Assembly (NCBI GenBank): GCA_030427385.1
Contig: JAUHWR010000001.1
Span: 1,980,042 to 2,044,041, forward strand
Length of the DNA stretch: 64,000 bases
Origin: Alphaproteobacteria bacterium
GTDB taxonomy: Bacteria > Pseudomonadota > Alphaproteobacteria > Micavibrionales > Micavibrionaceae
Direction: 5' to 3'
Shown here: piece by piece, positions 1 to 14,729 of the stretch
Layout: each line of letters starts with the position of its first letter
How positions within the stretch are numbered: position 1 is the first letter of the stretch
Notes under the pieces: generated by a model
The model's input: the letters and a program-made list of their open reading frames with translations, nothing else
Told to the model about the DNA's origin: nothing
Database searches by the model: none
Made by a program: the position numbers and the translations under genes

Positions 1-630
1 CAGATCAAACAACCAATTCATATTTGATTTTAAAGGAGAGTGACAAATAATATTTCTGTTTGATTTTCCCGCAATCCTGTTTTTATCTGTGTGTTCTGGT
101 TTGCTTAAAAGGTTAGATTCATTGAGCCAGCTAGGCTCTTCAAATCTATTAGGAGGAAAATAAAGACTACAATTACTATCAACCAACTTTTTAAGCTCAT
201 CAGACTTTTTCGGTAAATTGTTTCCTGTAACAGTGTTTTCTCCATCAGGAATTTGTGCCCACTCCTTTCTCGCTGGTGTATACTTATAAACATCTTCAAA
301 ATCTTTTTTAAAACGTGACAATACCCATTCGTGAAATTCTATCCCTTCACTTAAATAAAGCTTCATAAAAGCATAATGCTTACCAGAAGTTATATAATTG
401 GGACTTCTTAGCTTATAAACTCTTCCATCCTCCACTTCTGTATTAGGGTAAAGAGACGCTTTAGCAACCATTAATGCATTCACCGCATGGGAAAGAAAAA
501 TACTTTTCCCACTTCCATTTTTGCCGACAATGATTAGAGGTTTAGGATTCCCATTTGTCGAAAAAGGGAAGTTAATATCCAAATTCTTTAGAGGGCCATA
601 ATTCTCAATCTCAATTCGCTCGAAGTACAT
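1..630 (-). CDS. AAA ATPase (SMC/OLD-like), N-terminal part, runs off left edge
   Basis: The reverse strand from 630 is open to the window edge, giving about 210 N-terminal residues. The protein begins MYFERIEIENYGPLK, the typical opening of RecF/SMC-like AAA ATPases of the AAA_15/AAA_23 kind, followed by a clear Walker A, GKNGSGKS, near residue 40. A second ATG lies six bases upstream (636), but the AAAGG ribosome-binding site is correctly spaced only for 630. The signature and Walker B regions are outside the window, so the subfamily cannot be fixed. Proteins of this kind occur in DNA repair and in defence systems. It diverges from the cas1 module, from which it is separated by about 260 bases. 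It may be a neighbour of that element or part of its cargo. Confidence 0.75.
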   Translation of the reverse strand, partial: MYFERIEIENYGPLKNLDINFPFSTNGNPKPLIIVGKNGSGKSIFLSHAVNALMVAKASLYPNTEVEDGRVYKLRSPNYITSGKHYAFMKLYLSEGIEFHEWVLSRFKKDFEDVYKYTPARKEWAQIPDGENTVTGNNLPKKSDELKKLVDSNCSLYFPPNRFEEPSWLNESNLLSKPEHTDKNRIAGKSNRNIICHSPLKSNMNWLFDL

Positions 631-636
631 TTTCAT

Positions 637-892
637 TACCTTTCATTCACTGCCTATTATTCTTATTTTTTGATCAAAACACAATAAAATCATAGAGTTG
701 TGCTTGAAATCTCGGTTTTTGAGATTTTCGGGGCTTAGTAACTCTGCACTAGGCAGTTGGAATCCAGTCGCTACCAATGAAGCCAATTGGTTTCTATATT
801 TTAAATCAACTGCTTAATCATGGTAAAACGCATTTAAAACTGCTAAAAATAAGCATGTCCCAAACACATGCAAAAGCCAAAACTGATAGTAA
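637..892. other. Intergenic region between divergent ATPase gene and cas1 module
   Basis: This AT-rich gap lies between two divergent transcription units and should contain both promoters. A small inverted repeat, AAATCTC-GGTTTTT-GAGATTT, sits at 707-727. The palindrome CCAATTGG lies at 783-790. A short ORF of 56 codons starts at ATG 777 and ends at 947; its last codons (from ATG 900 or 906) look like the missing N-terminus of Cas1 and are described separately. I searched for CRISPR-like repeat-spacer structure and saw none. Confidence 0.5.
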
Positions 893-899
893 AACGCCA

Positions 900-1045
900 A
901 TGATAATGACTGGTCAAATCGTGGCGAATATTGGCAAAAAAGAATAAATCCCATTCCGCAATATAAAGCCCAAAAACGCAGGATCATTCACAGGCCACTT
1001 GTTTTAAGCGGTCACGGTATCCGGTTAAATGTCGATTGCGGCACG
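900..1045 (+). other. N-terminal Cas1 segment upstream of the first in-frame start, with a frame change at six A
   Basis: The Cas1 frame stays open upstream of TTG 1046 to position 893 and encodes PLVLSGHGIRLNVDCGTLL (995-1051), which resembles the usual first strand of the Cas1 N-terminal domain. No ATG, GTG or TTG occurs in that frame between 893 and 1045. The frame one base away contains ATG 900 and ATG 906 and reads MTGQIVANIGKK up to AAA AAA GAA TAA (936-947). One extra A, or a -1 shift, at the A6 run (936-941) joins the two into a continuous protein reading IGKKRINPIPQYKAQKRR. This could be programmed frameshifting, transcriptional slippage, a sequencing error or an inactivating deletion. 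The joined frame is seen directly; its expression is inferred. Confidence 0.5.
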
Positions 1046-2020
1046 TTGCTTATAAAATGTGGTTTTACCCATTATCCACAAAAGCGAGAAGAATACCGCT
1101 TTTTTCCTAAAGATCGGCAGCTACCCTCCCGCATTGTTATTTTAGACGGTGACGGTAGCATTACTTTTGATGCGCTAGAATGGCTATCAGAACAAGGCGT
1201 TCCTTTGGTGCAAATAAATTGGAAAGGCGATATTTCATGTGTTGGTGGTGCTGATTATGCGGCTAATTTTGACTTGGTAAAGCGTCAACTGGAAATACAG
1301 GAAAACGGCCAAGGCTTTGAGTTTTCTAAATGGCTAATCCTTGAGAAGATAAAAAATTCTTATGACACGATAAAACATATATCGGATAATTCGCCCGAAG
1401 CGCAGCCCATGCTGGCAAAAATTAAAGAACAGGCTGACGCTTTAAAAAAGAACCCGCCCGATAATTTAGGATCATTGCTTGCTGTGGAAGGTATCGCTGC
1501 GGCGGCTTATTTCCGTTATTGGTACACGCTGCCTTTGAAGTGGCGAGGTTTAGGCCGTAAACCAATTCCCCAAGAGTGGGAAAAGATCGGAACGCGCATC
1601 GGCGGCACGAGAAAAAGCAATCAATATGCCGTGCATCCGGTCAATGCCATTCTAAACTACGTCTATGGCGTTTTAGAGCAACAAGTAAGAGGGCATATAG
1701 TGGCGGCGGGTGTTGATCCCACGATTGGTTATATGCACTCCAATAGCAGCGACCGCGCCTCACTTGTCTTTGACCTTATGGAGCCTATACGCCCTGTAAT
1801 GGATCAAAAAATACTGGAATTTGTCATTGGCCGGACATTCTCGCCGGATGATTTTATACTTGGCAAAAATGGTATTGTACGATTGCACCCGCAATTTGCG
1901 CGATATGTCGTTAAAATAGTGCAGGATATACCGGAAATAGAAAAAATAACCGCGGGCAATTTAAAAAAGCTATTTGGCCGCAATATATCTCAAAAACCTC
2001 GTAATTCTTTTATTTCTTGA
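1046..2020 (+). CDS. cas1: Cas1-family integrase (solo, casposase-like)
   Basis: This is the Cas1 metal-dependent integrase/nuclease. Counting from TTG 1046, the catalytic Glu is E148 in LLAVEGIAAAAYFRYW. The catalytic His is H231 in TIGYMHSNSSDRASL and the Asp is D243 in VFDLMEPIRPVMD, so all three metal ligands are present. The N-terminal beta domain (FTHYPQKREEYRFF, RIVILDGDGS) is recognisable, but this TTG start truncates it; see the segment at 900-1045. No Cas2, Cas4, effector gene or repeat array is nearby. Genes for an HTH protein, an HNH protein and a family B polymerase follow instead, the gene content of casposons, in which Cas1 acts as the transposition integrase. Confidence in family is high; the exact start is uncertain. 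Confidence 0.9.
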   Translation: MLIKCGFTHYPQKREEYRFFPKDRQLPSRIVILDGDGSITFDALEWLSEQGVPLVQINWKGDISCVGGADYAANFDLVKRQLEIQENGQGFEFSKWLILEKIKNSYDTIKHISDNSPEAQPMLAKIKEQADALKKNPPDNLGSLLAVEGIAAAAYFRYWYTLPLKWRGLGRKPIPQEWEKIGTRIGGTRKSNQYAVHPVNAILNYVYGVLEQQVRGHIVAAGVDPTIGYMHSNSSDRASLVFDLMEPIRPVMDQKILEFVIGRTFSPDDFILGKNGIVRLHPQFARYVVKIVQDIPEIEKITAGNLKKLFGRNISQKPRNSFIS

Positions 2021-2099
2021 ATTAATTAGCCTTTTATTCCCGATTAAATTAATTTCTTTAATTAGGTTTAATTATAAAAATAGATAGAAATTTTAGTAA

Positions 2100-2927
2100 A
2101 TGGTTGATTTTGCAACAGATATAAAAGAAACATCCGAGGTATTAGGAAAAGAAAATATTAATTGTTTAATTAGTTTATTTAATGAAATAGACGGTAAACC
2201 ACCACGCGTTAATAAAAAACGGTATCGTGCCAATAAACCAGATCAAATACCCGTGTTAGATTATTTAGAACAATCGGCACATTTAATAACAATCAAAACT
2301 ATTGAAACAAAGCAATTTTATCATTTGCGCGCTTATGCCATTCCTTTAATTAAAGAACAAAAAGCGCAAAATTTGCTAAATCTTATGTGTAAAATATATG
2401 GGGAGTTGTCTGTATTCTATAAAGAACGCTTAGACAAAAATGTTACAAGGGATGAGTTGCTAAAAACCATTGATGCTCCCAATCGACAAGCATTAGAAGC
2501 TTTAAGCTATTTTCAGGATACGCATAGCGTTTGGACGGGATGGGGAAAGGGCTTTCCATACGAGGAAGGTTCGCACATTAATATTTCAGAAGATGTTATT
2601 TTAAAAGAAAGTTTCCTTGAAGTTTTAACGGATTATTACCGCTGGCATTTTATTAATCAAAATAAAGAGGATTCATTTATAAATAACAAAATTTCGTTAC
2701 CTGATAAAAAACCACATAGAAAACAGGGAAGACCATCCAAAAAACACATGATAGACGAAGCCTTCGATGCTTTGGACAGTGACGGTAAAATTAATCGTTC
2801 GGATTCGATACAATCTCATTATGATTTAATTCGAGATACTCTAATAATCCTATATCCTGATATGAGCGACGATAACGGCCTGTCAGATGAAACTATTCGG
2901 CGCGCTATCCGAGAACATTTCAAGTAA
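2100..2927 (+). CDS. Unrecognised protein in casposon-like module
   Basis: I do not recognise this 275-residue protein. It is soluble, with no signal peptide or membrane segment. A basic, low-complexity linker (KKPHRKQGRPSKKH, roughly residues 203-217) separates an alpha-helical N-terminal part from a C-terminal part that ends ETIRRAIREHFK, suggesting a DNA-associated helical domain. It follows cas1 by 79 very AT-rich bases and precedes the HTH, HNH and polymerase genes on the same strand, so a role in replication, integration or control of the element is reasonable but unproven. No convincing Shine-Dalgarno sequence precedes ATG 2100. Confidence 0.6.
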   Translation: MVDFATDIKETSEVLGKENINCLISLFNEIDGKPPRVNKKRYRANKPDQIPVLDYLEQSAHLITIKTIETKQFYHLRAYAIPLIKEQKAQNLLNLMCKIYGELSVFYKERLDKNVTRDELLKTIDAPNRQALEALSYFQDTHSVWTGWGKGFPYEEGSHINISEDVILKESFLEVLTDYYRWHFINQNKEDSFINNKISLPDKKPHRKQGRPSKKHMIDEAFDALDSDGKINRSDSIQSHYDLIRDTLIILYPDMSDDNGLSDETIRRAIREHFK

Positions 2928-3014
2928 AATACCCCTCCTAAAAAAACACAAAAATACCCTCAAAATTATTTCTATTTTTGCGAGATTTATTGAGGTTCTG
3001 GTCTGACATATCTT

Positions 3015-3626
3015 TTGATTCGGAACACCGAAATAAAGGATACGAACGTAGGCAAACAAAATAAAAAACGCGATTATAAAGCTGAATATAAGCGGCGGGT
3101 TGAGCGCGGCCTTGCTAAAGGGCTTACACTTTCACAAGCGCGGGGGCATCCCAAGGCAGGTGAAAAAAACATCAAAAAACCGCGCCCTATAAGGGATGAG
3201 TCGTTTCAAATTAGTTTGAAAGCCCTACGCTCTGGCAAAACGCTTGCCGAGGCTGCTAAGGAAATTCGTGTTTCTCCCGAACGCTTGCGAAATCAGGCAA
3301 AAGCACGCGGGGCTATCAAAAAGAAAGGCCGCAGATGGGTTGTTAAAAACGATCTACCACGGCAAATGTTGATCTACACAGAAGGTCAGGCTCTTTCTAT
3401 CACTATCGGCAGATTCCATTACGCCTCAAAGCTTGGCCGTTATATGGCGGGTGTAAGACGGTTTTTAAGAAGCAATGACCCCGCACATCTAAAACCATTT
3501 ATCGGGCAGTCCGTTAAGGATAGCCGCGACAATACTTACATTTTTGAAACTGATCCAAACGCTCTCTACCGCATAGCGGCCAGTGGCAGCGAAACCTTTG
3601 AACAGATTTATCGCATCATCATTTAA
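3015..3626 (+). CDS. Small DNA-binding (helix-turn-helix) protein of the module
   Basis: This basic protein of up to 203 residues starts at TTG 3015, since no better start is visible. Residues about 20-50 (RDYKAEYKRRVERGLAKG, then LTLSQARGHPK) form a positively charged segment. Residues about 72-105 (SLKALRSGKTLAEAAKEI, then RVSPERLRNQAKARGA) look like a helix-turn-helix. The C-terminal part has no recognised fold. The stop is 17 bases before the HNH gene, which has its own AAAGGAG ribosome-binding site, so the genes are probably co-transcribed. HTH proteins are regular companions of Cas1 and PolB in casposons. The function is inferred from composition and context. Confidence 0.6.
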   Translation: MIRNTEIKDTNVGKQNKKRDYKAEYKRRVERGLAKGLTLSQARGHPKAGEKNIKKPRPIRDESFQISLKALRSGKTLAEAAKEIRVSPERLRNQAKARGAIKKKGRRWVVKNDLPRQMLIYTEGQALSITIGRFHYASKLGRYMAGVRRFLRSNDPAHLKPFIGQSVKDSRDNTYIFETDPNALYRIAASGSETFEQIYRIII

Positions 3627-3643
3627 CAAAAGGAGAAAAAGAT

Positions 3644-3991
3644 ATGAATGATAAAGAAGCACGTAAACAAAAACGCCTTGAAGTCTTAGGCAGCAATCAT
3701 CCGGTATGTGTTGTTTGCGGCGAGGATAGTTGGCAGTGCCTTGAACAGCACCATATCGCCGGACAAGCCTATAGTGACGATCTATGCAATGTTTGCCGAA
3801 ACTGTCACCGTAAATTAAGCGATGAGCAAAACGATCATCCTAGCCCGATAACCAAAGATCCCGCATCTACTGAAACCATAGGCCATTTTCTTTTGGGGTT
3901 GGCAGACCTATTCGCGCTTTTGGTCGAAAGATTGCGGGAATATGGTCAGTCTCTTATTCAGGCCGCCAAAGATGCAGGGAGAGAGGTATGA
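3644..3991 (+). CDS. HNH-type zinc-binding nuclease-like protein
   Basis: The 115-residue product carries a compact zinc/HNH motif: C22-x2-C25, H36-H37 (EQHHIAGQAYSD), N49 and C51-x2-C54-H55 (CNVCRNCHRKLSD). The His-His, Asn and His positions match the metal-finger nuclease fold. The remaining C-terminus is helical and unassigned. A strong AAAGGAG site precedes ATG 3644. The stop codon overlaps the start of the polymerase gene by four bases (ATGA), indicating translational coupling. HNH proteins are a common casposon component. Whether this one cleaves DNA is inferred from the motif alone. Confidence 0.75.
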   Translation: MNDKEARKQKRLEVLGSNHPVCVVCGEDSWQCLEQHHIAGQAYSDDLCNVCRNCHRKLSDEQNDHPSPITKDPASTETIGHFLLGLADLFALLVERLREYGQSLIQAAKDAGREV

Positions 3992-6900
3992 GTATTCCCG
4001 ATGAGCAGCCTTTGCCTATCGCGGTTCGTGCCTATGTATGCAAAGTGGATCAAAAAACTCTGCCTTTCATAAAGAAAAAAGGCGGCAGAAAGCGGCCTGT
4101 CCCTTCGGAATGGATTTTAATTTTTGATACTGAAACCACTACCGACGCAGCACAAAAGCTTCGTTTTGGCACGTATCAGGTGCGAAAGAGTGCTGATCTT
4201 GTAGAGGCAGGAATTTTTTACGATCCCGAAACTTTGAATAAAACAGAGCAAGTTACTCTGAAAGAGTACGCGAGAAAAAAACAATTAACCTTGATGAATG
4301 TGCGGGGATTTATTGAGAAAATATTTTATGGCGTTGGCTATAAATACCGCGCCAGCATTGTTGGCTTTAATCTTCCCTTTGATATTTCACGGCTAGCCAT
4401 AGACCATACGCCCTCAAGAGGTACGCGCTATAATAAACTTATGCGCGGCGGGTTTACTTTTAAATTATCTGATAACCACTGGCAGCCAAGAGTGCAGATC
4501 AAGCATGTATCATCGCGCAACGCTTTTATTCAATTTGCGGCAACTAGAGAGCAGCGCACATCAAGAGGCAATCGAAAGAAAGGAAATTATCAGGCTGTAA
4601 GACGCGGCTTTTTTATCGACACGAAAACATTGGCGGCGGCATTAACCAGCCAATCTCATTCCCTTGCATCATTGGCGCAAGCTTTAAAAATTAAAGCTCA
4701 AAAACATCATACGGAAGATCACGGACGAACTTTAACCACTGATTATATTGACTACGCGCTGCAAGACACACAAACCACATGGGAATGTTATGAACGGCTG
4801 CAATCGCTTTACAAATTGCATGGGCTGGAATTAACACCAGCACATAGCATTCATAGCGAGGCTAGCCTTGGAAAAGCCTATTTGCGGGATATGGGCGTTA
4901 AGCCTTGGAAGACAATGCAGACAGATTTTCCCGATGATATTACAGGCAATATTATGAGTGCCTATTATGGGGGGCGTTCTGAAATTCATATTAGCAAAAA
5001 GTCCGTACAAGTCCTGTATTGCGATTTCCTATCCATGTATCCAACAGTTTGCACCCTCATGGGATTATGGCGATTTGTAACATCGCAAGGCATGGATTGG
5101 CACGATAGCACCGAAGAAACAGGTAAGTTTTTAAACGACATCACAATACCAATTTTACAAAAACAGGAAACATGGCAATCGCTTACTATCCTTGTTCAAG
5201 TTATACCAGATAACGATATTTTCCCCGTTCGTGCCAAATATGGTGGGGATGCTCAATATACAATCGGCTCAAACTTTCTAACCAGTGATACGCCGCTATG
5301 GTTTACATTGGCTGATTGCATATCCTCAAAACTTCTCAGTGGCCGCACCCCTAAAATATTGAAGGCAATTTCCTTTAAACCCAAAGACATGCAGGAAGAT
5401 TTAAAACCTGTTTGCGTGGCGGGAAATACCAATTATGCGGTTGATCCTTGCGAGGGTGATTTCTTCAGGCGGGTTATTGATCTGCGCCGCGCTGTAAAAG
5501 AAAAGGTCAAAACAGCCTCCCCACAAGAAAAAAACGCGCTAGAAAACCAGCAGCTTGCGCTCAAAATTCTAGCAAACGCCACAAGTTACGGAATATTTGT
5601 AGAGCTTAATGTTGAGGAAGAAAAGCAAACGCAACCGCTTTTATGTTACGGATATAGCGGCAAGCCTACGAAACTTGAAAAGAAAAAATTTGAAGCCACA
5701 GGCTCATTTTTCCATCCGTTGCTTGCCGCACTTATTACAGGGGCGGCGCGGTTAATGCTGGCAATCACCGAACGTCAAGCGTTAGATGCGGGATTGGATT
5801 GGGCTTTTTGCGATACGGACAGCATGGCTTTGGCAAAGCCTGAAAATATGAGCATTGAGGAATTTTACAAAAGAGCAAGGCAAGTGCAGGAATGGTTTAC
5901 ACCGCTTAATCCCTATGCAGAAAAAGCACCGCTTTTAAAAATAGAGGATTATAATTATAGCCTACCCTATAAAGACACGTTAGATCCGCTTTATTGCTAT
6001 GCCATTTCATCAAAGCGTTACGCGCTATATAATCTTGATGAAAATGGACAACCAATCTTGCGAAAAATTTCCGCGCATGGGCTTGGTCATTTAATCGCCC
6101 CCTATCAAAAGCCAAATACAAAAACTCTAGAGGACTCGCAGCCTTGGCAGCAGGATTTATGGCTGGAAATCATCAAGGCATCACTCGAAAATAGACAGCC
6201 GAATTTTATGAGCCTAAAAAACTTTAATCTGCCCGCCGTAAGCCGTTATGGAGCAACCACGCCTGCCCTTGAAAAATGGTTCGTTGGATATAATGAGAAC
6301 AAGCCATATAAAGACCGTGTACGGCCTTTTAATTTCCTACTAGCCATGCAATCGCTCCCACACTTTAAAACATTAAAACCCGTTGCATCCTATGACAAAA
6401 ATCCATCTAAGGCCGTGGCGCGTTGCTTTGATCGCAGCACAGGAGAAAAGATCAAAAAATTCCAGTTAAAGACCTATCTGGATTCTTTGGCGCAATATCA
6501 CTTGCACCCTGAAACCAAGTTTTTGAACGGCGATTATACGGATGCGGGAATAACACAGCGGCGGCATATCCGCGTTAAATCCATTCAACATATCGGCAAA
6601 GAGGCCAATAAATGGGAAGAACAGTTTTTTACGGGCTTTAATCCCGATGCACAAATTGAATACGGTATGTGCGCCGAACAAAAAATAGAAATGCTCGAGA
6701 CTGTATTACGGGCAATAAAAAAATATGGCGTAAAGTCCATGGCAGATATGTCTAAATTATCGCAACGTCATATTTTGAATATTTATAAGGAAAAAACAAA
6801 TTTATCCGAAAATGCGCTATTAAAATTATATTCCGCTGTAAAAACTCTCGGAAATTTAGATAAAAAAGAAAATGAATTACGGGAATTAATTAGAAATACA

Positions 6901-7038
6901 ATTAAAGAAAAAGGTATTTCTATTCGTCAATTAGCAGAAACGGTAGAAATAGACCCATCCAATCTGTCGAAATTAATTTCAGGAAAAAGAACAGATTTAA
7001 AAAAATTAGAATTTATTTATTCGTATTTAATTAAATAA
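3988..7038 (+). CDS. polB: Family B DNA polymerase with 3'-5' exonuclease and C-terminal XRE-type HTH
   Basis: The 1016-residue protein has both catalytic halves of a family B DNA polymerase. The exonuclease motifs are D47/E49 (FDTETTTD), N128/D132 (GFNLPFDISR) and Y256-x3-D260 (DYALQD). The YxGG motif is YYGGR at 326-330. Polymerase motif A is D346 in YCDFLSMYPTV, motif B is KILANATSYG near residue 526 and motif C is CDTDS near residue 609. All catalytic acids appear intact. Unusually, the last 60 residues (ISIRQLAETVEIDPSNLSKL, then ISGKRTDL) form an XRE/Cro-like helix-turn-helix, suggesting self-recruitment or autoregulation. The gene overlaps the HNH gene by four bases. In casposons PolB is proposed to replicate the excised element. 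Confidence 0.92.
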   Translation: MSIPDEQPLPIAVRAYVCKVDQKTLPFIKKKGGRKRPVPSEWILIFDTETTTDAAQKLRFGTYQVRKSADLVEAGIFYDPETLNKTEQVTLKEYARKKQLTLMNVRGFIEKIFYGVGYKYRASIVGFNLPFDISRLAIDHTPSRGTRYNKLMRGGFTFKLSDNHWQPRVQIKHVSSRNAFIQFAATREQRTSRGNRKKGNYQAVRRGFFIDTKTLAAALTSQSHSLASLAQALKIKAQKHHTEDHGRTLTTDYIDYALQDTQTTWECYERLQSLYKLHGLELTPAHSIHSEASLGKAYLRDMGVKPWKTMQTDFPDDITGNIMSAYYGGRSEIHISKKSVQVLYCDFLSMYPTVCTLMGLWRFVTSQGMDWHDSTEETGKFLNDITIPILQKQETWQSLTILVQVIPDNDIFPVRAKYGGDAQYTIGSNFLTSDTPLWFTLADCISSKLLSGRTPKILKAISFKPKDMQEDLKPVCVAGNTNYAVDPCEGDFFRRVIDLRRAVKEKVKTASPQEKNALENQQLALKILANATSYGIFVELNVEEEKQTQPLLCYGYSGKPTKLEKKKFEATGSFFHPLLAALITGAARLMLAITERQALDAGLDWAFCDTDSMALAKPENMSIEEFYKRARQVQEWFTPLNPYAEKAPLLKIEDYNYSLPYKDTLDPLYCYAISSKRYALYNLDENGQPILRKISAHGLGHLIAPYQKPNTKTLEDSQPWQQDLWLEIIKASLENRQPNFMSLKNFNLPAVSRYGATTPALEKWFVGYNENKPYKDRVRPFNFLLAMQSLPHFKTLKPVASYDKNPSKAVARCFDRSTGEKIKKFQLKTYLDSLAQYHLHPETKFLNGDYTDAGITQRRHIRVKSIQHIGKEANKWEEQFFTGFNPDAQIEYGMCAEQKIEMLETVLRAIKKYGVKSMADMSKLSQRHILNIYKEKTNLSENALLKLYSAVKTLGNLDKKENELRELIRNTIKEKGISIRQLAETVEIDPSNLSKLISGKRTDLKKLEFIYSYLIK

Positions 7039-7048
7039 TAAAAAATAT

Positions 7049-7075
7049 CGAAATATTTCTAATTAGAAAAAAATC
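7049..7075. promoter_or_regulatory. Imperfect palindrome downstream of polB, possible operator
   Basis: The perfect 14-bp palindrome TTTCTAATTAGAAA (7056-7069) sits inside a longer imperfect one bounded by CGA and TCG. It lies in the 109-base AT-rich gap between polB and the DUF4238 gene. No T-tract follows, so a terminator is unlikely. It could be a binding site for one of the HTH proteins of the module; this is inference. Confidence 0.3.
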
Positions 7076-7147
7076 GGAATTACAATGAAATCTATTTCTT
7101 AATACTATATCATTCGCATATAAGCACACAAAACTCGACACAGAATA

Positions 7148-8122
7148 ATGCCCAAAGATCATTATGTAGCGCAAACTTATCTGAAACATTTTTTAGCCCC
7201 AGAGTTGGGCAACCTTTTGCATGCTTACGACAAACAGGGATTGAAGCATTTTACCCCGACCACAAAAAACATATGTTGTGCTCAAGATTGGGATACAAAT
7301 CCATATTTTGAAGATGAGCGGGCGATTGATAAATATCTGCGTGTCATAGAGCCTAAATGGAATCACGGCGTTGAAGATATTAGTGACCTCTTGAAATATG
7401 AAGAGGTTAAATATTTTATGGCTGGATATATCGCAGTTTTAGTTTCCTGCACTCCGGCAAGCATTAGAACTCTGACTTATGCGACGGAACAAATTATTGC
7501 ATCCGGCGGAAACATTTTAGCTCAGCAAATGCAGGAACATCCTGAAAGGTTTCCCGAGACAGTACCCTTACCATCGGAAATATTTGAGAAGATTATGGAC
7601 GCTGGAGGAATCTCTGCACAGGTCGATCCGAAGCATACGCATGCCCGTACCATGCAAAATCTAGTGGATTTGCAATGGCACTTCTATAAATCGCCGTGGA
7701 TGATCCTTGATAATGAAACGGACAGCCCGTTTCTTACCAGTGACTTTCCCGTGGCATATTACTATCCAAAGCCTCACGCACAGATACCTTACAGATTTGT
7801 TCCTCTCACCCCAAGATATGCGGTGTTAATTAAACCCAGCCTTGATAAATCGGACAGAAAAGATCCCAAAGAATCTTTTGAAAAATACCCGATAACGGAA
7901 ATTGATATTCGATCTGTACGACCAGAATTTCCGAAAGTATTAAATAAGCTCACCATTCAAGGGGCAGAACAGTTTGTTATTTCTGCTTACGATGCACCTT
8001 GGATAATGAAAATGGTTAAAAAATATCGTAACTGGAAAATGGATAGCGGCACTGTTCGCTTGCCTCACGGTAATGGGGAACTGATTGTTTCCCGCAACAT
8101 GCCGAGAGAACAAGCAGCTTAA
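7148..8122 (+). CDS. DUF4238-type protein
   Basis: The 324-residue protein opens MPKDHYVAQTYLKHFLAP, a close match to the characteristic start of DUF4238 proteins. These are sporadically distributed and often found near mobile elements or defence genes; their biochemical function is not established. Further expected features are a WHFYKSPWMIL segment and a SDFPVAYYYP stretch around residue 200. No signal peptide or transmembrane segment is visible. It follows the polymerase gene on the same strand and precedes the NTPase gene by 80 bases, and I read it as probable cargo of the element. Confidence 0.7.
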   Translation: MPKDHYVAQTYLKHFLAPELGNLLHAYDKQGLKHFTPTTKNICCAQDWDTNPYFEDERAIDKYLRVIEPKWNHGVEDISDLLKYEEVKYFMAGYIAVLVSCTPASIRTLTYATEQIIASGGNILAQQMQEHPERFPETVPLPSEIFEKIMDAGGISAQVDPKHTHARTMQNLVDLQWHFYKSPWMILDNETDSPFLTSDFPVAYYYPKPHAQIPYRFVPLTPRYAVLIKPSLDKSDRKDPKESFEKYPITEIDIRSVRPEFPKVLNKLTIQGAEQFVISAYDAPWIMKMVKKYRNWKMDSGTVRLPHGNGELIVSRNMPREQAA

Positions 8123-8202
8123 TTTGGAAGGACACATGACAACATTTGAAAGATAAACCATATGCAAAACTTAGTTCTTGAAAAGAACAGACGGAATAAA
8201 AA

Positions 8203-10044
8203 ATGATAAATCATATAGAAAATGAAATTTTAGACTTCCTAGATTCCAATGAATCAGGCGTAATTGTGATTAAGGGCGATTGGGGCACTGGAAAAACTTA
8301 CACTTGGAATGAATGGCTTAAAAAAGCTGTAGTTAATAAAAAGATCAATGAAAGCCAATACACCTACGTGTCCTTGTTCGGTTGCAATTCATTGGATGAG
8401 CTAAAAACCCAAACATTCCAAGAGTTAATACCCGTGGGTATGATACCCGAAGGTGTGAATATCGACACTGTTACTGAAAATATCAAAGAAGTGGCAGAAA
8501 AGAAGAATTGGAAGGCATTACTGCCATTTTCGGGTAGTCTTACAAAAAAACTTAATGACATACCATTCATTAGAAATTATAGCGTGGATGTTTGGCGTTT
8601 GGGCTGGATGACAATAAAAAACACGCTCGTTTGCATAGATGATATTGAGCGCATTGGTGAAGGTCTTAGGGTCAAGGATGTTTACGGCCTTGTATCTGTT
8701 TTAAAAGAGCAGAAGAAGTGCAAAGTTGTTCTCATTCTTAACGACGAAAGTATCGAGGGTGCTAATAAGAAAGATTATGAAGACTACAGAGAAAAAGTCG
8801 TAGATGTAGAACTCCATTTTTCTCCAGTAACGGAAGACTTGGTTAAACTTATTTTCGAAGATACGCACCCATACTTCAGTAAAATTAATCACTGCATATC
8901 CCGTTTGCAGGTTAAAAATATACGGACAATTCAAAAGATAAAAATGTATCTCGACAAGCTTTCACCCAATTTAGAGGGGGTGGAAAATATATACTATGAG
9001 AATGTAATCAATTCCATTGTGCTGTTTACAGTTTTGCATTTTTCAAAGCCAGATAAATGGCCAACCCTAGATCAAGTGTTAGAAACAAATACCGAACAAT
9101 TTTTGATGGTTGAATATTGTTTGAAGAAAGACGGTGCTGAGCAACAAGGTGCAACCACCGACTGGGCACAAACCATGAATCTTCTAAGGGAAAATTATAC
9201 ATGGGGCGGTGCGGATGAAATAGATCAACTTTTAGGACTGTACGTTAAACAAGGCTACATTGAGCCAGAGCGTTTACAAAAACTAATCGAAAAATCTGCC
9301 GAGGACACCCAAAAAATAAAGCAAAAGGATGAAGCACGCTCACGTAAAGAGAAAGTGCGAGAGCTTTTATTCTCAACTTGCGAAGAAAACCTACCGGAAA
9401 TTATTTCAGCTATAGAAGAAAGTCTTGAGGCAAACGTAAAGTCATACGCAGCTTTGGGCGAATTGAATGAAGCTGTAACGATTTTAAAAGAAATTCAACA
9501 AGCAGGCGAAGCTGATAAGCTTATTGCAAAATATGTTGAATGGGGCAAAGGCATAGGATCGAGCCGTTTAAATCCAGATAATTATGACTCAATGTTTACC
9601 GGAACGCTTGATGATAAAATTCTTTCAGAAATACAAAAGCCATTTGAAGAGTTAAGAAAAAAAGAAATTGCCGAACATATTCAAACTATTGATCGACAAG
9701 AAAAGCTAGCTGATGTAGCAGAGCGAAGCCCCGACTATAATTTGAATGAAGAAGATTATGAAACTCTCTCATATTTTAAGACAGAAGATTTTGAAACATT
9801 TCTTCGAAATTCCAGAATAATTAGTAAGCAGATAAGAAACTTTTTGGAAATTTTCCTGTTACGATCAGAGCCAATAATTGGTGATTGCTTAACGCATCAC
9901 AATAAAATCCAGCTAGTGTTAATTGAAGCGATTAAAGCAATTACGAACGATTCTGATTTAAATAAATATCGTTTCGACAAATATATAAATTTTATCGAAT
10001 CTCTTAACGCTGATTCCATAAATGAAACAACCGCTACCAATTAA
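8203..10044 (+). CDS. KAP-like P-loop NTPase
   Basis: This 613-residue protein has an N-terminal P-loop domain. The Walker A is KGDWGTGKTYTW near residue 28 and the Walker B is TLVCIDDIERIG near residue 150, the doubled Asp-Glu form seen in KAP-type STAND NTPases. The segment VVLILNDESIEG (about residue 180) would be the sensor strand. The C-terminal 350 residues are helical and Glu/Lys-rich without a recognised domain. No membrane segments are evident, although many KAP proteins have them. KAP NTPases are recurrent in anti-phage and mobile-element loci, so a defence or cargo role is plausible but unproven. The 3' end runs into a perfect hairpin. Confidence 0.65.
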   Translation: MINHIENEILDFLDSNESGVIVIKGDWGTGKTYTWNEWLKKAVVNKKINESQYTYVSLFGCNSLDELKTQTFQELIPVGMIPEGVNIDTVTENIKEVAEKKNWKALLPFSGSLTKKLNDIPFIRNYSVDVWRLGWMTIKNTLVCIDDIERIGEGLRVKDVYGLVSVLKEQKKCKVVLILNDESIEGANKKDYEDYREKVVDVELHFSPVTEDLVKLIFEDTHPYFSKINHCISRLQVKNIRTIQKIKMYLDKLSPNLEGVENIYYENVINSIVLFTVLHFSKPDKWPTLDQVLETNTEQFLMVEYCLKKDGAEQQGATTDWAQTMNLLRENYTWGGADEIDQLLGLYVKQGYIEPERLQKLIEKSAEDTQKIKQKDEARSRKEKVRELLFSTCEENLPEIISAIEESLEANVKSYAALGELNEAVTILKEIQQAGEADKLIAKYVEWGKGIGSSRLNPDNYDSMFTGTLDDKILSEIQKPFEELRKKEIAEHIQTIDRQEKLADVAERSPDYNLNEEDYETLSYFKTEDFETFLRNSRIISKQIRNFLEIFLLRSEPIIGDCLTHHNKIQLVLIEAIKAITNDSDLNKYRFDKYINFIESLNADSINETTATN

Positions 10045-10056
10045 GATAGCGGTTGT
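10027..10056 (+). repeat. Perfect 10-bp inverted repeat at the end of the NTPase gene
   Basis: ACAACCGCTA (10027-10036) and TAGCGGTTGT (10047-10056) form a 10-bp stem around a 10-base loop that contains the TAA stop. No T-run follows, so it may stabilise the transcript 3' end, or be part of an element boundary. Confidence 0.55.
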
Positions 10057-10115
10057 CTGTGTCTTTAGTGGCAAGTGTGGTCAGAATATGGAACTCTGTG
10101 ACCTATCACTATACC

Positions 10116-10139
10116 CCCTGCATGATGCGGGGCTTTTTT
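10116..10139 (+). terminator. Rho-independent terminator of the accessory region
   Basis: CCCTGCA-TGA-TGCGGGG is a GC-rich stem followed by C and six T (10134-10139). It would end plus-strand transcription from the NTPase gene before the convergent fasciclin gene. Base composition changes at about this point, making it a natural right margin of the accessory region. Confidence 0.75.
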
Positions 10140-10156
10140 GTGATTAGATTGTATTT

Positions 10157-10765
10157 TTATTCAACATCTATGTCGGTTTCGGCTTTAAGATCCGGATTGA
10201 CGCTTTCATTTGTTGGCATAATGACGGTATCAATGACGTGGATTACGCCGTTAGAGCCGTTGATATCAGCGGAGGTGATATTGGCACCGTTAATGGTAAC
10301 GCCCGCATCAGTTTTTACCACGGCAGCCGTTGAGCCTTCCAATGTTTCAACATCTGTGGAGCCATCCGCAATATCACCGGCATGGATAACGCTGCCAATA
10401 ACGTGATATTTCAAAATGGATTGCAGTTTTTCTTTATTTTCAGGCTTTAGCAGATCATCAACTGTTCCTTCCGGCAGCTTCTCAAATGCCGCATTTGTCG
10501 GTGCAAAAATGGTGATATTTTCAGTTGTTTGCACGGTTTCAGCCAAATCAGCAGCTTTTAAAGCGGAGACAAGCGTTGTGAAATCTTCATTTTCCATGGC
10601 AATTTCACCCAGATTTTGATCTGCGCTTGACGTGTCATGGGCGGATTTTTCTTTGTGATCCATATCTTTATGATCACCTTCATGGTGTTCAGCCAGTGCC
10701 GGCATTGCGCCTAACGCTGCGATCATCGCGGTTGTGCATAAAATTTTCTTAAACATGTTATTCAT
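10157..10765 (-). CDS. Secreted fasciclin (FAS1) domain protein
   Basis: The 202-residue protein starts with a cleavable signal peptide, KKILCTTAMIAALGAMPALA, followed by a His/Asp-rich linker. A single FAS1 domain covers about residues 50-185. The two conserved FAS1 boxes are visible: ITIFAPTNAAFEKLPEG and the C-terminal GVIHVIDTVIMP. FAS1 proteins act in cell-surface adhesion and matrix binding and are found in many alphaproteobacteria as small periplasmic or secreted proteins. The C-terminus is acidic. A second ATG lies nine bases downstream of 10765 and could be used instead. The gene is convergent with the NTPase gene, from which it is separated by a terminator. Confidence 0.9.
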   Translation of the reverse strand: MNNMFKKILCTTAMIAALGAMPALAEHHEGDHKDMDHKEKSAHDTSSADQNLGEIAMENEDFTTLVSALKAADLAETVQTTENITIFAPTNAAFEKLPEGTVDDLLKPENKEKLQSILKYHVIGSVIHAGDIADGSTDVETLEGSTAAVVKTDAGVTINGANITSADINGSNGVIHVIDTVIMPTNESVNPDLKAETDIDVE

Positions 10766-10836
10766 CTTTCATTTGATTGTGTGCCCTTTAAACGCATAAC
10801 AATCGAAAAAGTTCAATAATCCGTGAATATTCAGCG

Positions 10837-10914
10837 TTAACTAGGGACAGTCACTTTTTAATTGAAAAGTGACTGTCCCTAGTTAAGAGGAAAAAGTGAC
10901 TGTCCCCAGAGAGG
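10837..10914. repeat. REP-like palindrome cluster, intergenic copy
   Basis: A perfect 22-bp inverted repeat has its arms at 10837-10858 and 10865-10886. The core is GGGACAGTCACTTTT against AAAAGTGACTGTCCC, with a 6-base loop. A third unit follows in direct orientation at 10887-10914, reading GAGGAAAAAGTGACTGTCCC. The arrangement is the same as in the cluster inside xseA. Such short palindromic units are typical of REP/BIME sequences mobilised by Y1 transposases, but no transposase gene is in the window. Confidence 0.8.
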
Positions 10915-10918
10915 TGGG

Positions 10919-12277
10919 TTAATCGAGGAGTTTGCAGGCTTTCAGGGGGGGATCGCCGGTATATGTTTCAAGCTTTCGTTTCATATAGCCCGGTAGATCG
11001 CCAAGATTGGAAAACATCATAACCGCATATAAGCAAAATAACGTACCCGCAATGGCAATTGCGCGCTGTTTACGAGACGGTTTTTTCTTTAGGGCGCCCT
11101 CCATAATATAGGTCAGGACAAAATCACCATCCAGACGCGGAAAGGGGATCAAGTTAATAAAGCCGATCAGGATGGACAACAATGCCGTCTTAAACGCAAT
11201 TTGATAGATGATATTATGATAATAATAGATGCTTTCCGTTTCAAAGGGAATGCGTTCGGCGAAAAGTTTGGGGTCAATCGGAAAAATCTGGAAGGGCATT
11301 TTAAGCATATGCCAGAACAGCTTGCCGGCCTCATTTATGCCTTGGCGCGCGGCTTCAGTGGGAGATAATGACAGAAAGGCATTATCATGTAACGGCCCGA
11401 TATAAACGGCCTCGTATTTTTTATGATGTTCATCTAAAAGGTTCTGATTGAGGGCGGCGCGGATGACCACCGGATAAAAATAGACATTATCATCCACATT
11501 ATACATTCCAATGCGAATGGGGCGATCAAAGGATTTAATTAGCTCGGCGCGGGCGCGATCTTCATCATTTTTGGTGTAAACTGACCCGACTTGGTGGATG
11601 AATTTCAAGGGAATCGCCAAATTCGCGTTTAAAACGCCAATGCGATATTGGTTGCGCGGAATGCCAACGATATCGATATATATATCTTTTTTGGGCGTGA
11701 CAGAAAGGCGTAGATTTTGCCCCGCGCGGATAATGCCCAAATTAAGTGTCTGTCCCTTTGAGTTATTAATAAAATCGCCTAGCTGGTCATAGCTGTGGAT
11801 CTTAATATCATTTACGTGGGTGATGAAATCGCCGCGTTGCAATCCGGCAGTTTCAGCCGCCGATCCAATTGTTACGCCGCTGAGGACCGGCGGGCGGATG
11901 GGAAAGCCGACGAGGATGAAGCAAAGCGGCAATATTATAAAGGGCAGTAATAAATTTGCCCCCGGCCCCGCCAAAACAACCCATAATCGCGTGCCAACCG
12001 AGCGGCGGGAGTTAGTATTTTCATCAAGGGTCAGATCGGAAATCCGTACGTGGCCACCAATCGGGAAAATACGAAACACCCATTCAGTGCCGTGGCGATC
12101 CGTTATGCCCCAGAGTTTTTTACCGATACCGACTGAAAATTCTTCGATTGTCATGCGCCGCATGCGCGCCGCCCAGTAATGCCCCAGTTCATGTATAATA
12201 AAGACAAGAAACAGAGCAATCAGCGCGCCGGGAATGGTGGAGAGTTTATCGGACGTCGCCTCAAGAAATTCAGTCAT
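10919..12277 (-). CDS. rseP: Site-2 (M50) membrane metalloprotease, RseP/MmpA-like
   Basis: The 452-residue membrane protein has the zinc-binding motif HELGH near residue 29, inside the first transmembrane helix. A PDZ domain spans about residues 130-200 (IGSAAETAGLQRGDFITHVN). The second catalytic motif, NLIPFPRLDGD, near residue 385 supplies the Asp ligand. Family members perform regulated intramembrane proteolysis, for example of anti-sigma factors or, in Caulobacter, of PodJ. It differs from standard RseP in a long insert (about residues 220-340) between the PDZ domain and the third membrane segment, and in LDGD rather than LDGG. It is not next to bamA or dxr as rseP often is, so it may be a paralogue with another substrate. 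Confidence 0.85.
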   Translation of the reverse strand: MTEFLEATSDKLSTIPGALIALFLVFIIHELGHYWAARMRRMTIEEFSVGIGKKLWGITDRHGTEWVFRIFPIGGHVRISDLTLDENTNSRRSVGTRLWVVLAGPGANLLLPFIILPLCFILVGFPIRPPVLSGVTIGSAAETAGLQRGDFITHVNDIKIHSYDQLGDFINNSKGQTLNLGIIRAGQNLRLSVTPKKDIYIDIVGIPRNQYRIGVLNANLAIPLKFIHQVGSVYTKNDEDRARAELIKSFDRPIRIGMYNVDDNVYFYPVVIRAALNQNLLDEHHKKYEAVYIGPLHDNAFLSLSPTEAARQGINEAGKLFWHMLKMPFQIFPIDPKLFAERIPFETESIYYYHNIIYQIAFKTALLSILIGFINLIPFPRLDGDFVLTYIMEGALKKKPSRKQRAIAIAGTLFCLYAVMMFSNLGDLPGYMKRKLETYTGDPPLKACKLLD

Positions 12278-13792: not shown

Positions 13793-14729
13793 ACAAACCA
13801 AGCCCGGTACGCCGTTAATTACCGGGGCGAGCATTCCGGAAAAGCATATTGATGACCCGTTATTCGGGATGGGCGTGGCCGTTCTGGCTTATTTTTTATT
13901 GGCGTTAATGCAGGTCTTTGGCAAATTATTGAGCGATCATCATCATGTCGTCGAGATCGCCTTTTGGCGCAATGCCATCGCGCTGGTGCCCTTTTTTTTA
14001 TATATCGTTCTGTTTCGTGATAAAGAGATTTTAAAGGTTAAAAAGGGCGCATTTGGGGCGATTTTTGCACGATCTACCTTTGGGACGCTCAGTTTGATTG
14101 TCACCTTTGCCGCCTTTGCCGCGATGCCGATGGCGGATACTACGGCGTTTTTATTCACGTCATCGTTAATGCTGCCAATTCTATGTATTTTCTTTTTGGA
14201 TGAGCGGGTCGGGAAATATCGCTGGGCGGCGATTTTAATCGGTCTGGTCGGGGCGATTATTATGGCGGCGCCAACAGGCGCAGTGAATAGCTGGGGGATA
14301 ACGCTGGCGCTATCGGCGGCGGTGTTACATGCGATTTTGGGCACGCTGCTGCGGTTATTGGGTAAATCGGAAAGTCCGGAGACGATTACGTTTTATTTTC
14401 TGCTGACGGGGTTGTTGTTGACCGCCATTGGCATGCCGTGGGTTGGCACAATCCCAAGCGCCGAACATATTCCGTGGTTGATCGGGTTGGGGCTGTCGGG
14501 GGCGGCGGCGCAATTTTGCCTGTCGCTGGCGTTTAAATATGCCCCTGCCGCGCTGGTGACGATTTTTAATTATACGGGGATTATTTGGGCGACGTTATTT
14601 GGCTATTTTATATGGAATGACTGGCCGTCATGGCCGATCTGGCTTGGCGGCGGGGTTGTCATTATCTCCAATTTATTTATCGTCTGGCGCGAGCAGAGGC
14701 GGGCGGCAGACGGTCAGATCACCTCTTAA
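13785..14729 (+). CDS. DMT-superfamily permease (EamA), second of a pair
   Basis: This paralogue of the upstream permease has the same two-repeat, ten-helix layout, with parallel motifs such as DTTAFLFTSSLMLPILCIFF and DERVGKYRWAAILIG. The start is placed at ATG 13785 because GAAAGAG lies seven bases before it. A TTG at 13770 would lengthen the N-terminus inside the preceding gene. The N-terminal 25 residues are polar and cytoplasmic. The substrate is unknown. The stop codon overlaps the stop of the converging gene at 14726 by three bases. Confidence 0.88.
   Translation: MSKQTKPGTPLITGASIPEKHIDDPLFGMGVAVLAYFLLALMQVFGKLLSDHHHVVEIAFWRNAIALVPFFLYIVLFRDKEILKVKKGAFGAIFARSTFGTLSLIVTFAAFAAMPMADTTAFLFTSSLMLPILCIFFLDERVGKYRWAAILIGLVGAIIMAAPTGAVNSWGITLALSAAVLHAILGTLLRLLGKSESPETITFYFLLTGLLLTAIGMPWVGTIPSAEHIPWLIGLGLSGAAAQFCLSLAFKYAPAALVTIFNYTGIIWATLFGYFIWNDWPSWPIWLGGGVVIISNLFIVWREQRRAADGQITS

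Follow-up and report, generated by a model that had tools for sequence, protein, structure and literature searches.

Casposons of family 3, founded on StrAlb-C1, HenMar-C1, NitAL212-C1, and AceAut-C1, are presented in the available parts of their original description as elements with a bacterial host, an RNA-primed-type family B DNA polymerase (PolB), an HNH protein, a helix-turn-helix (HTH) protein, inverted repeats, a target duplication, and no recognized transposase of known type (PMC4046053); in the accessible portion of a later account, the targets of families 3 and 4 are called just "intergenic" (PMC6614799). The current analysis of a 64,000-nucleotide stretch of DNA from an alphaproteobacterium of the family Micavibrionaceae (contig JAUHWR010000001.1, here C1, positions 1,980,042–2,044,041 of the forward strand; hereafter the window) reveals an element with the same set of features. 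It spans C1:1978742-1990157, or 11.4 kb, beginning 1.3 kb left of the window and ending at window position ~10116. Judged by its sequence, it is a real bacterial casposon, of family 3 by gene content, and we hold with high confidence that this family 3-type element is inserted in an intrinsic terminator, that its resolved relatives in the same Cas1 clade mostly sit in centered stem-loops, and that symmetry-guided integration by Cas1 may be inferred from this pattern.

Like that of the founders StrAlb-C1 and HenMar-C1, the window Cas1 has no extra domains, whereas the window element is set apart from family 3, as far as the founders' descriptions extend, by a Cas1 gene on the PolB strand, a protein of its own (P2), other cargo, and a terminator stem-loop as its target (PMC4046053). 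With family 2 casposons, which are found in Methanosarcinaceae and other archaea, the window element shares the core of Cas1, HTH, HNH, and PolB genes, a C-terminal HTH domain on PolB, repeat ends of the GGGTTATAG/GGGATATAG type, and a duplication near 14 bp. The accessible description of family 2 gives it a Cas1 with a C-terminal HTH and tRNA 3′ ends as targets (PMC4046053); the window element has neither of these and no archaeal host. In keeping with that published family, several archaeal elements in our survey have a tRNA-like 3′ end at the target place, with flanks such as GGTTCGAATCCCACC.

The stem-loop CCCTGCATGATGCGGGG abuts both inverted repeats of the window element in direct orientation, at window 10116–10132 (plus strand) and at C1:1978725-1978741. 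Joined in silico, the two flanks read AAAAAAAAG-CCCTGCATGATGCGGGG-CTTTTTT, an intrinsic terminator ~60 nt behind ilvC and convergent with the gene of a fasciclin-domain protein (10157–10765, minus strand; PF02469, E = 6.7e-38), which now faces ilvC across the element; host gene names other than fasciclin, ilvC included, were assigned by eye. A terminator scan of window positions 1–12000 listed the right target copy first of 16 candidates, a count that is itself uninformative as shuffled sequences average 11.6, and a search of the same 12 kb against Rfam gave no match at the gathering score. The two target copies share 17 bp, of which 14 bp (10118–10131) is the likely duplication; the border can be placed only to within a few bases because target and repeats both end in runs of C or G. 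In two elements with clear borders, L041 and L049, the repeats end in GGGGTATAG and the duplication is 14 bp, and with the same end assumed, the window duplication is CTGCATGATGCGGG, also 14 bp. The accessible parts of the published work give 14–15 bp for the casposase of A. boonei (PMC6614799) and 14 bp for that of M. mazei (PMC6977970). The inference of a hairpin does not depend on the exact border, since each arm can also be read on the side away from the element.

The ends of the element emerged from a DNA comparison of the window with genomes G001, G067, G073, and G064, in which a sequence of ~120 bases recurs next to Cas1 genes. In the window genome it has two good copies, inverted with respect to each other (C1:1978718-1978833 and window 10025–10139) and 84% identical. 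Because the end pattern, at up to two mismatches, occurs in the 2.19-Mb genome once forward and once reverse, the element can be bounded at C1:1978742-1990157. The right terminal inverted repeat occupies 10025–10117 on the minus strand (~95–100 bp; its inner border is approximate), and its left partner starts at C1:1978742. A dispersed terminator repeat was considered in place of terminal repeats and ruled out, as the only two good copies in the genome are inverted around the element. The initial annotation had proposed a casposon-like module at 893–7038 and had suggested looking for inverted repeats and a target duplication; both surround the element, and together with PolB and the position of Cas1 among casposases (below) they bear out that proposal. 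The five genes assigned to this block do belong to the casposon, in the order and on the single strand described, while the extent does not hold, the element between the inverted repeats being larger.

The integrase candidate of the element is Cas1 (893–2020, plus strand; PF01867, E = 2.1e-40), the best match of which in the PDB is the M. mazei casposase, 6opm_A (E = 4.4e-29). In a Cas1 tree of 77 rows, 68 casposases are split from nine plasmid CRISPR Cas1 proteins by a branch with 100/99 support, and the window protein falls among the casposases, as the initial annotation had anticipated; several of the CRISPR rows are long branches of unsure inner order, and types II and I-E are not represented among them by name. 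Within the casposases, the window Cas1 groups with those of G001, G067, G073, and L029 (100/100) inside a 32-row proteobacterial clade (92/84) that includes Henriciella pelagia. Nitrosomonas rows stand in two places, and the four founding sequences of family 3 lie outside the set used for this tree.

That the block is a CRISPR-Cas adaptation module or a remnant of one is suggested by the match of its Cas1 to CRISPR Cas1 models. We regard this reading as practically negligible given the tree position, the presence of inverted repeats and a duplicated target, the absence of a second Cas1 and of Cas2 from the scan of the window genome (the Cas2 controls were positive in 7 of 14), and the lack of a tandem array in the window, the part of the genome that was searched for arrays. 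The same results agree with the earlier statement that no Cas2 and no array are visible, as regards the genome for Cas2 and the window for arrays. Spacer integration by Cas1-Cas2 resembles the casposon in using a homologous integrase and in duplicating its target; it differs in requiring Cas2, in placing short spacers at the leader, in lacking inverted repeats and a polymerase, and in having its Cas1 across the tree. An origin as a phage or plasmid element was also rejected, as PolB had no match in phage and plasmid records. None of 27 candidates in viral contigs was confirmed. Cas1 was compared with plasmid records only, and the matches listed (20 of 98 records) are annotated as CRISPR Cas1 and fall below 30% identity. 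No recombinase or transposase of another kind was recognized among the eight genes of the element, one of which, P2, has no family.

Of 142 genomes of the order, five have Cas1 relatives (E ≤ 1e-30), the window genome and a remnant in G064 being counted among them. PolB matches were obtained in 4 of 95 relatives, the match in G067 covering the C-terminal HTH part only; among 385 drawn genomes of the class, PolB was found in three. The elements sit in different surroundings. A five-sequence PolB alignment run against 84,980 species genomes gave 105 relatives, of which the best 80 were kept; 60 of these carry bacterial titles, many of them of metagenome-assembled genomes (MAGs), and 20 archaeal titles. 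The earlier view that bacterial casposons are few is thus not upheld. These 80 loci and seven others yielded 83 distinct loci (76 plus the seven), L033, L034, L036, and L093 having been left out as the same places as G001, G073, G264, and G494. The loci hold relatives of Cas1, PolB, or both, and each of the core genes Cas1, HTH, HNH, and PolB is present in 72–81 of the 83.

The ends of these elements were located with a finder that seeks a direct repeat flanking inverted repeats, run on the 81 loci with PolB and accepting a total of at least 22 with a repeat score of at least 8, cutoffs that, like the fold cutoff given below, were set after a first sight of the data. Thirty-six loci passed. 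L083 and L088 were removed by hand, the finder having settled inside a self-palindromic repeat, and G067 was added by hand, leaving 35 elements with both ends resolved; L052, L064, L079, and L097 have long direct repeats below the repeat-score cutoff. Totals in accepted elements range from 24 to 43; the highest value among 150 cross-pairings of unrelated ends was 20.6.

For each of the 35 elements, 20 in the Cas1 clade of the window element and 15 outside it, the presence of a stem-loop centered on the duplication was compared with 2000 random positions of the same locus. A centered stem-loop was found at p < 0.01 in 16 of the 20 clade elements and at p < 0.05 in none of the 15 outside; L087, one of the latter, counts as a hairpin at a fold of −6 kcal/mol or below and has p = 0.42 in the centered test. 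In the 16 hairpin elements, the strongest hairpin within ~60 nt either side lies at most 2 nt from the center of the duplication in 15 and at most 3 nt in all 16, with an exact coincidence in 10. On the Cas1 tree, the hairpin trait requires four changes, as against at least seven in 300 shuffles (mean 11.7). The rebuilt targets fold as terminators, and the hairpins share little apart from C-rich and G-rich borders.

These results bear on the notion that insertion is of low specificity and that what is seen is survivorship, in which only harmless intergenic insertions, often in terminators, persist. Terminators are natural safe sites, and the accessible part of the A. boonei study reports no detectable preference of that casposase in a plasmid lacking its target (PMC6614799). 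Against such a filter stand the centering of the duplication on the stem-loop within 3 nt in 16 of 16 elements, the persistence of the excess when only non-coding positions of the same loci serve as the reference (a comparison made for the clade elements, with 14 of 20 at the 0.01 level and 16 of 20 at 0.05), and the 15 casposons outside the clade that show no such centering. We therefore consider survivorship an improbable account.

A second alternative is a rule of sequence rather than structure, namely that Cas1 seeks C-runs and G-runs spaced ~14 bp apart and that the hairpin is a by-product. The C-rich and G-rich borders seen at all hairpin targets and the GGGG at the ends of the element speak for it; pairing that often runs past the duplication into A/T or other flanks, such as AAAAAAAAG/CTTTTTT at the window element and CCTCT/AGAGG at L042, is not demanded by such borders. 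This rule is rather unlikely in our estimation, yet it deserves more weight than survivorship. A third proposal, possible though we hesitate to call it probable, is that casposases of the clade would recognize the stem-loop form of the DNA itself, be it by its two-fold symmetry or as a cruciform, and not a fixed sequence, and would duplicate the stem-loop on insertion.

Several observations weigh against the main reading of a casposon with a hairpin target, among them the split frame of the window Cas1 (below). Two sister rows within it, G494 and L041 (87/86), have no hairpin, and two further clade elements, L046 (p = 0.13) and L068 (p = 0.07), do not reach significance; a strong hairpin is present 11–12 nt to one side of the duplication in L046 and, beyond the clade, in L049. 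A scan of single ends, made in loci where the two sides were not both resolved, was mixed, with hairpin-like targets at G001, L029, L035, L043, and L060 and none at L037, L040, L045, L052, L063, and L070. The support of the 32-row clade is moderate, and its limits were drawn with knowledge of the trait. In GC-rich hosts, many of the hairpins that serve as targets lack a T-run and could be intergenic palindromes of the REP-like kind instead of terminators; what the targets have in common is the palindrome. Lastly, the search for an exact empty counterpart of the window insertion gave nothing: a comparison with strains lacking the block, which the initial annotation had recommended, turned up none without exactly this insertion, and ilvC in relatives is followed by other neighbors. 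Hairpins do lie behind ilvC in G030 and G071 (found by the routine) and in G001 and G010 (seen by eye); with different next genes, these relatives do not provide a strict empty site.

The G067 element lies in the terminator behind rpsD and the G073 element in that behind a cold-shock gene; both stem-loops have asymmetric loops, and their copies are again direct and not inverted. In G064, a Cas1 fragment lies between two near-identical stem-loop copies beside a dehydrogenase-type gene, and the G001 element lies directly behind an autotransporter gene. In the viral contig L029, the element end follows a short gene that closes a run of phage-type genes. A strain of Marinicauda salina carries two copies (94.1% identical in Cas1 and 91.8% in PolB) in two different hairpins. 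Behind rpsD, the insertion place in G067, both G079 (of the same genus as G067) and G071 have uninterrupted hairpins that differ in sequence, with no PolB match in either genome. Because these element-free genomes hold intact but different hairpins, the choice seems to fall on structure rather than on a single sequence.

A scheme consistent with these observations can be proposed. A freed copy of the element, made with the help of PolB, would be held by Cas1 at its GGGGTATAG ends, and Cas1 would link the two 3′ ends to both strands of a GC-rich stem-loop, ~14 bp apart and symmetrically about the loop. Gap repair would then yield two stem-loop copies, one flanking each end of the element. In this scheme, the roles of Cas1 as integrase, the symmetric attack, gap repair, and replication by PolB are all putative. 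What is recognized could be the two-fold symmetry of the palindrome, or a cruciform extruded from it, rather than one sequence, perhaps with help from the HNH protein, the HTH protein, or P2. Palindrome recognition is plausible because the M. mazei casposase, in the accessible text, uses a symmetrized target as well as its natural one and was crystallized on a symmetric 14-mer (PMC6977970). Landing in a terminator would break no gene, and hairpins present within the inverted repeats of the window lineage could stand in for the split terminator and end host transcription.

If clade casposases follow such a rule, it would give these bacterial casposons a precise and testable target and would explain their spread without gene breakage; an integrase with terminators as its landing sites might also be useful as a tool for inserting DNA harmlessly. 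The CRISPR repeat, the target of spacer integration, is often palindromic. As the integrase is a Cas1, a palindrome preference coupled to duplication would bear on why CRISPR repeats are palindromic; a Cas1 that copies palindromes would be a living model for their origin, with repeated insertion at one hairpin giving hairpin-bounded units. In site choice, the window casposon is also like group IIC introns, which choose terminator stem-loops, and like Tn7; their enzymes and mechanisms are unrelated, and no membership is claimed. For Tn7, the accessible text describes a safe site behind a gene, glmS (PMC4046053).

The terminator target was not foreseen by the initial annotation and is new here; whether the rule itself is novel is not certain. 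A hairpin or terminator target rule was not found in the open-access literature searched, beyond the reach of which there are further target-site papers. The word "terminator" occurs zero times in PMC4046053, PMC6614799, PMC6977970, PMC9939771, PMC10359463, and PMC6563490, and in the accessible text of PMC8730458 and PMC6413058 it concerns tracrRNA and CRISPR transcripts.

The catalytic residues of the window Cas1 are retained. E148, H231, and D243, as counted in the initial annotation from a TTG at 1046, correspond to E199, H282, and D294 when the open frame is counted from 893, and all three are invariant in an alignment of four sequences (A2). The frame opens at 893 after a stop codon and contains no ATG, GTG, or TTG before 1046. 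Cas1 of close relatives has a start and a homologous N-terminus, which in the window copy is split over two frames; the window Cas1 is thus probably disrupted near its N-terminus. Together with repeats at 84% identity and the lack of another Cas1 in the genome, the split frame makes it probable that the window copy has lost its mobility, unless the split is bridged. It is somewhat likely that this copy, mobile in the past, is now a dead relic or that its Cas1 is kept for a host function. The split frame and the diverged repeats favor this, as do the decayed relatives: G064 is a remnant, PolB of G073 is cut short, and G067 has an open Cas1 frame with PolB, HNH, and P3 gone. Against decay, the rest of the genes in the window copy retain long open frames, and related elements occupy different sites in different genomes.

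Of the other core genes, P3 (3015–3626, plus strand) is a conserved casposon protein with a weak HTH signal (HTH_17, 0.067) and has homologs in 77 of 83 loci. The HNH endonuclease (3644–3991, plus strand; Pfam HNH 0.15, PHROGs HNH 3.6e-4) has homologs in 74 of 83; like that of P3, its Pfam signal is weak. PolB (3988–7038, plus strand; PF00136, 7.2e-6) ends in a C-terminal HTH domain (HTH_19, 3.5e-8), and its exonuclease and polymerase motifs, described previously as intact, are so: FDTETT, NLPFD, DFLSMYP, KILANATSYG, and CDTDS are invariant in an alignment of three sequences (A1). The second gene, left unassigned, encodes P2 (2100–2927, plus strand), a lineage-specific protein with no Pfam family at E ≤ 1 and a structural model of low confidence (mean pLDDT 56); its homologs are confined to the window genome (G000), G001 (from the same genus), and G073, that is, to 3 of 83 loci. 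The idea that P2 is a form of the gene between Cas1 and P3 in other casposons was rejected, as no HMM homology was detected (best profile match, E = 0.0019, probability 14%). The gene order is indeed unusual: Cas1 and PolB are co-stranded in the same three genomes only and on opposite strands in 67 of the 70 loci that have both.

Three further genes inside the inverted repeats constitute cargo. A PtuA-like AAA ATPase is encoded on the minus strand, with its 5′ part at window 1–636 and the remainder continuing to C1:1978854 left of the window (open reading frame L014:10855-12678; AAA_15/AAA_21; PADLOC PtuA, 2.7e-29). A DUF4238 protein (7148–8122, plus strand; PF14022, 3.3e-23) is followed by a KAP-type P-loop NTPase, a candidate defense protein (8203–10044, plus strand; PF07693, 8.8e-6; PDC-S49, 7.4e-23; phrog_4740, 3.7e-64). 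The PtuA-like ATPase and the KAP NTPase may be defense genes. Different cargo is seen in G494 (L032 1156–4489), where, by eye, a His-Xaa-Ser-like peptide system consists of a HASHASHAS-type peptide and two radical-SAM-like proteins.

Some minor observations concern individual relatives. The G067 locus contains at L013 5358–5600, close to the far inverted repeat and next to the complete Cas1, an additional partial Cas1 stretch (E = 4e-16), which looks like the outcome of a partial deletion or duplication of an earlier element. In G073 (L012 4184–8259), PolB breaks off near residue 800; after it, still within the inverted repeats, comes a frame resembling an oligopeptidase (named by eye), which seemingly lacks its N-terminus. 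At L029 6560–7751 (IMGVR_UViG_3300012268_000167), a casposon left end with a Cas1 80% identical lies behind a stem-loop after phage-type genes, and the element could travel between hosts by inserting into a prophage. L061, from a Robiginitomaculum MAG, has at ~14307–14350 a further TATAGTTATCTCC immediately after the target copy; it resembles the end of a second element and might stem from a tandem insertion. In Acetobacteraceae JOPF011, PolB-bearing casposon ends (L040 and L043) lie at both ends of one 76 kb contig; along with Marinicauda, this makes two cases of a genome with more than one copy. Within the window itself, adjoining the host fasciclin gene, positions 10837–10909 hold three near-copies of the 19–25-nt sequence AAAAGTGACTGTCCC in direct and inverted order.

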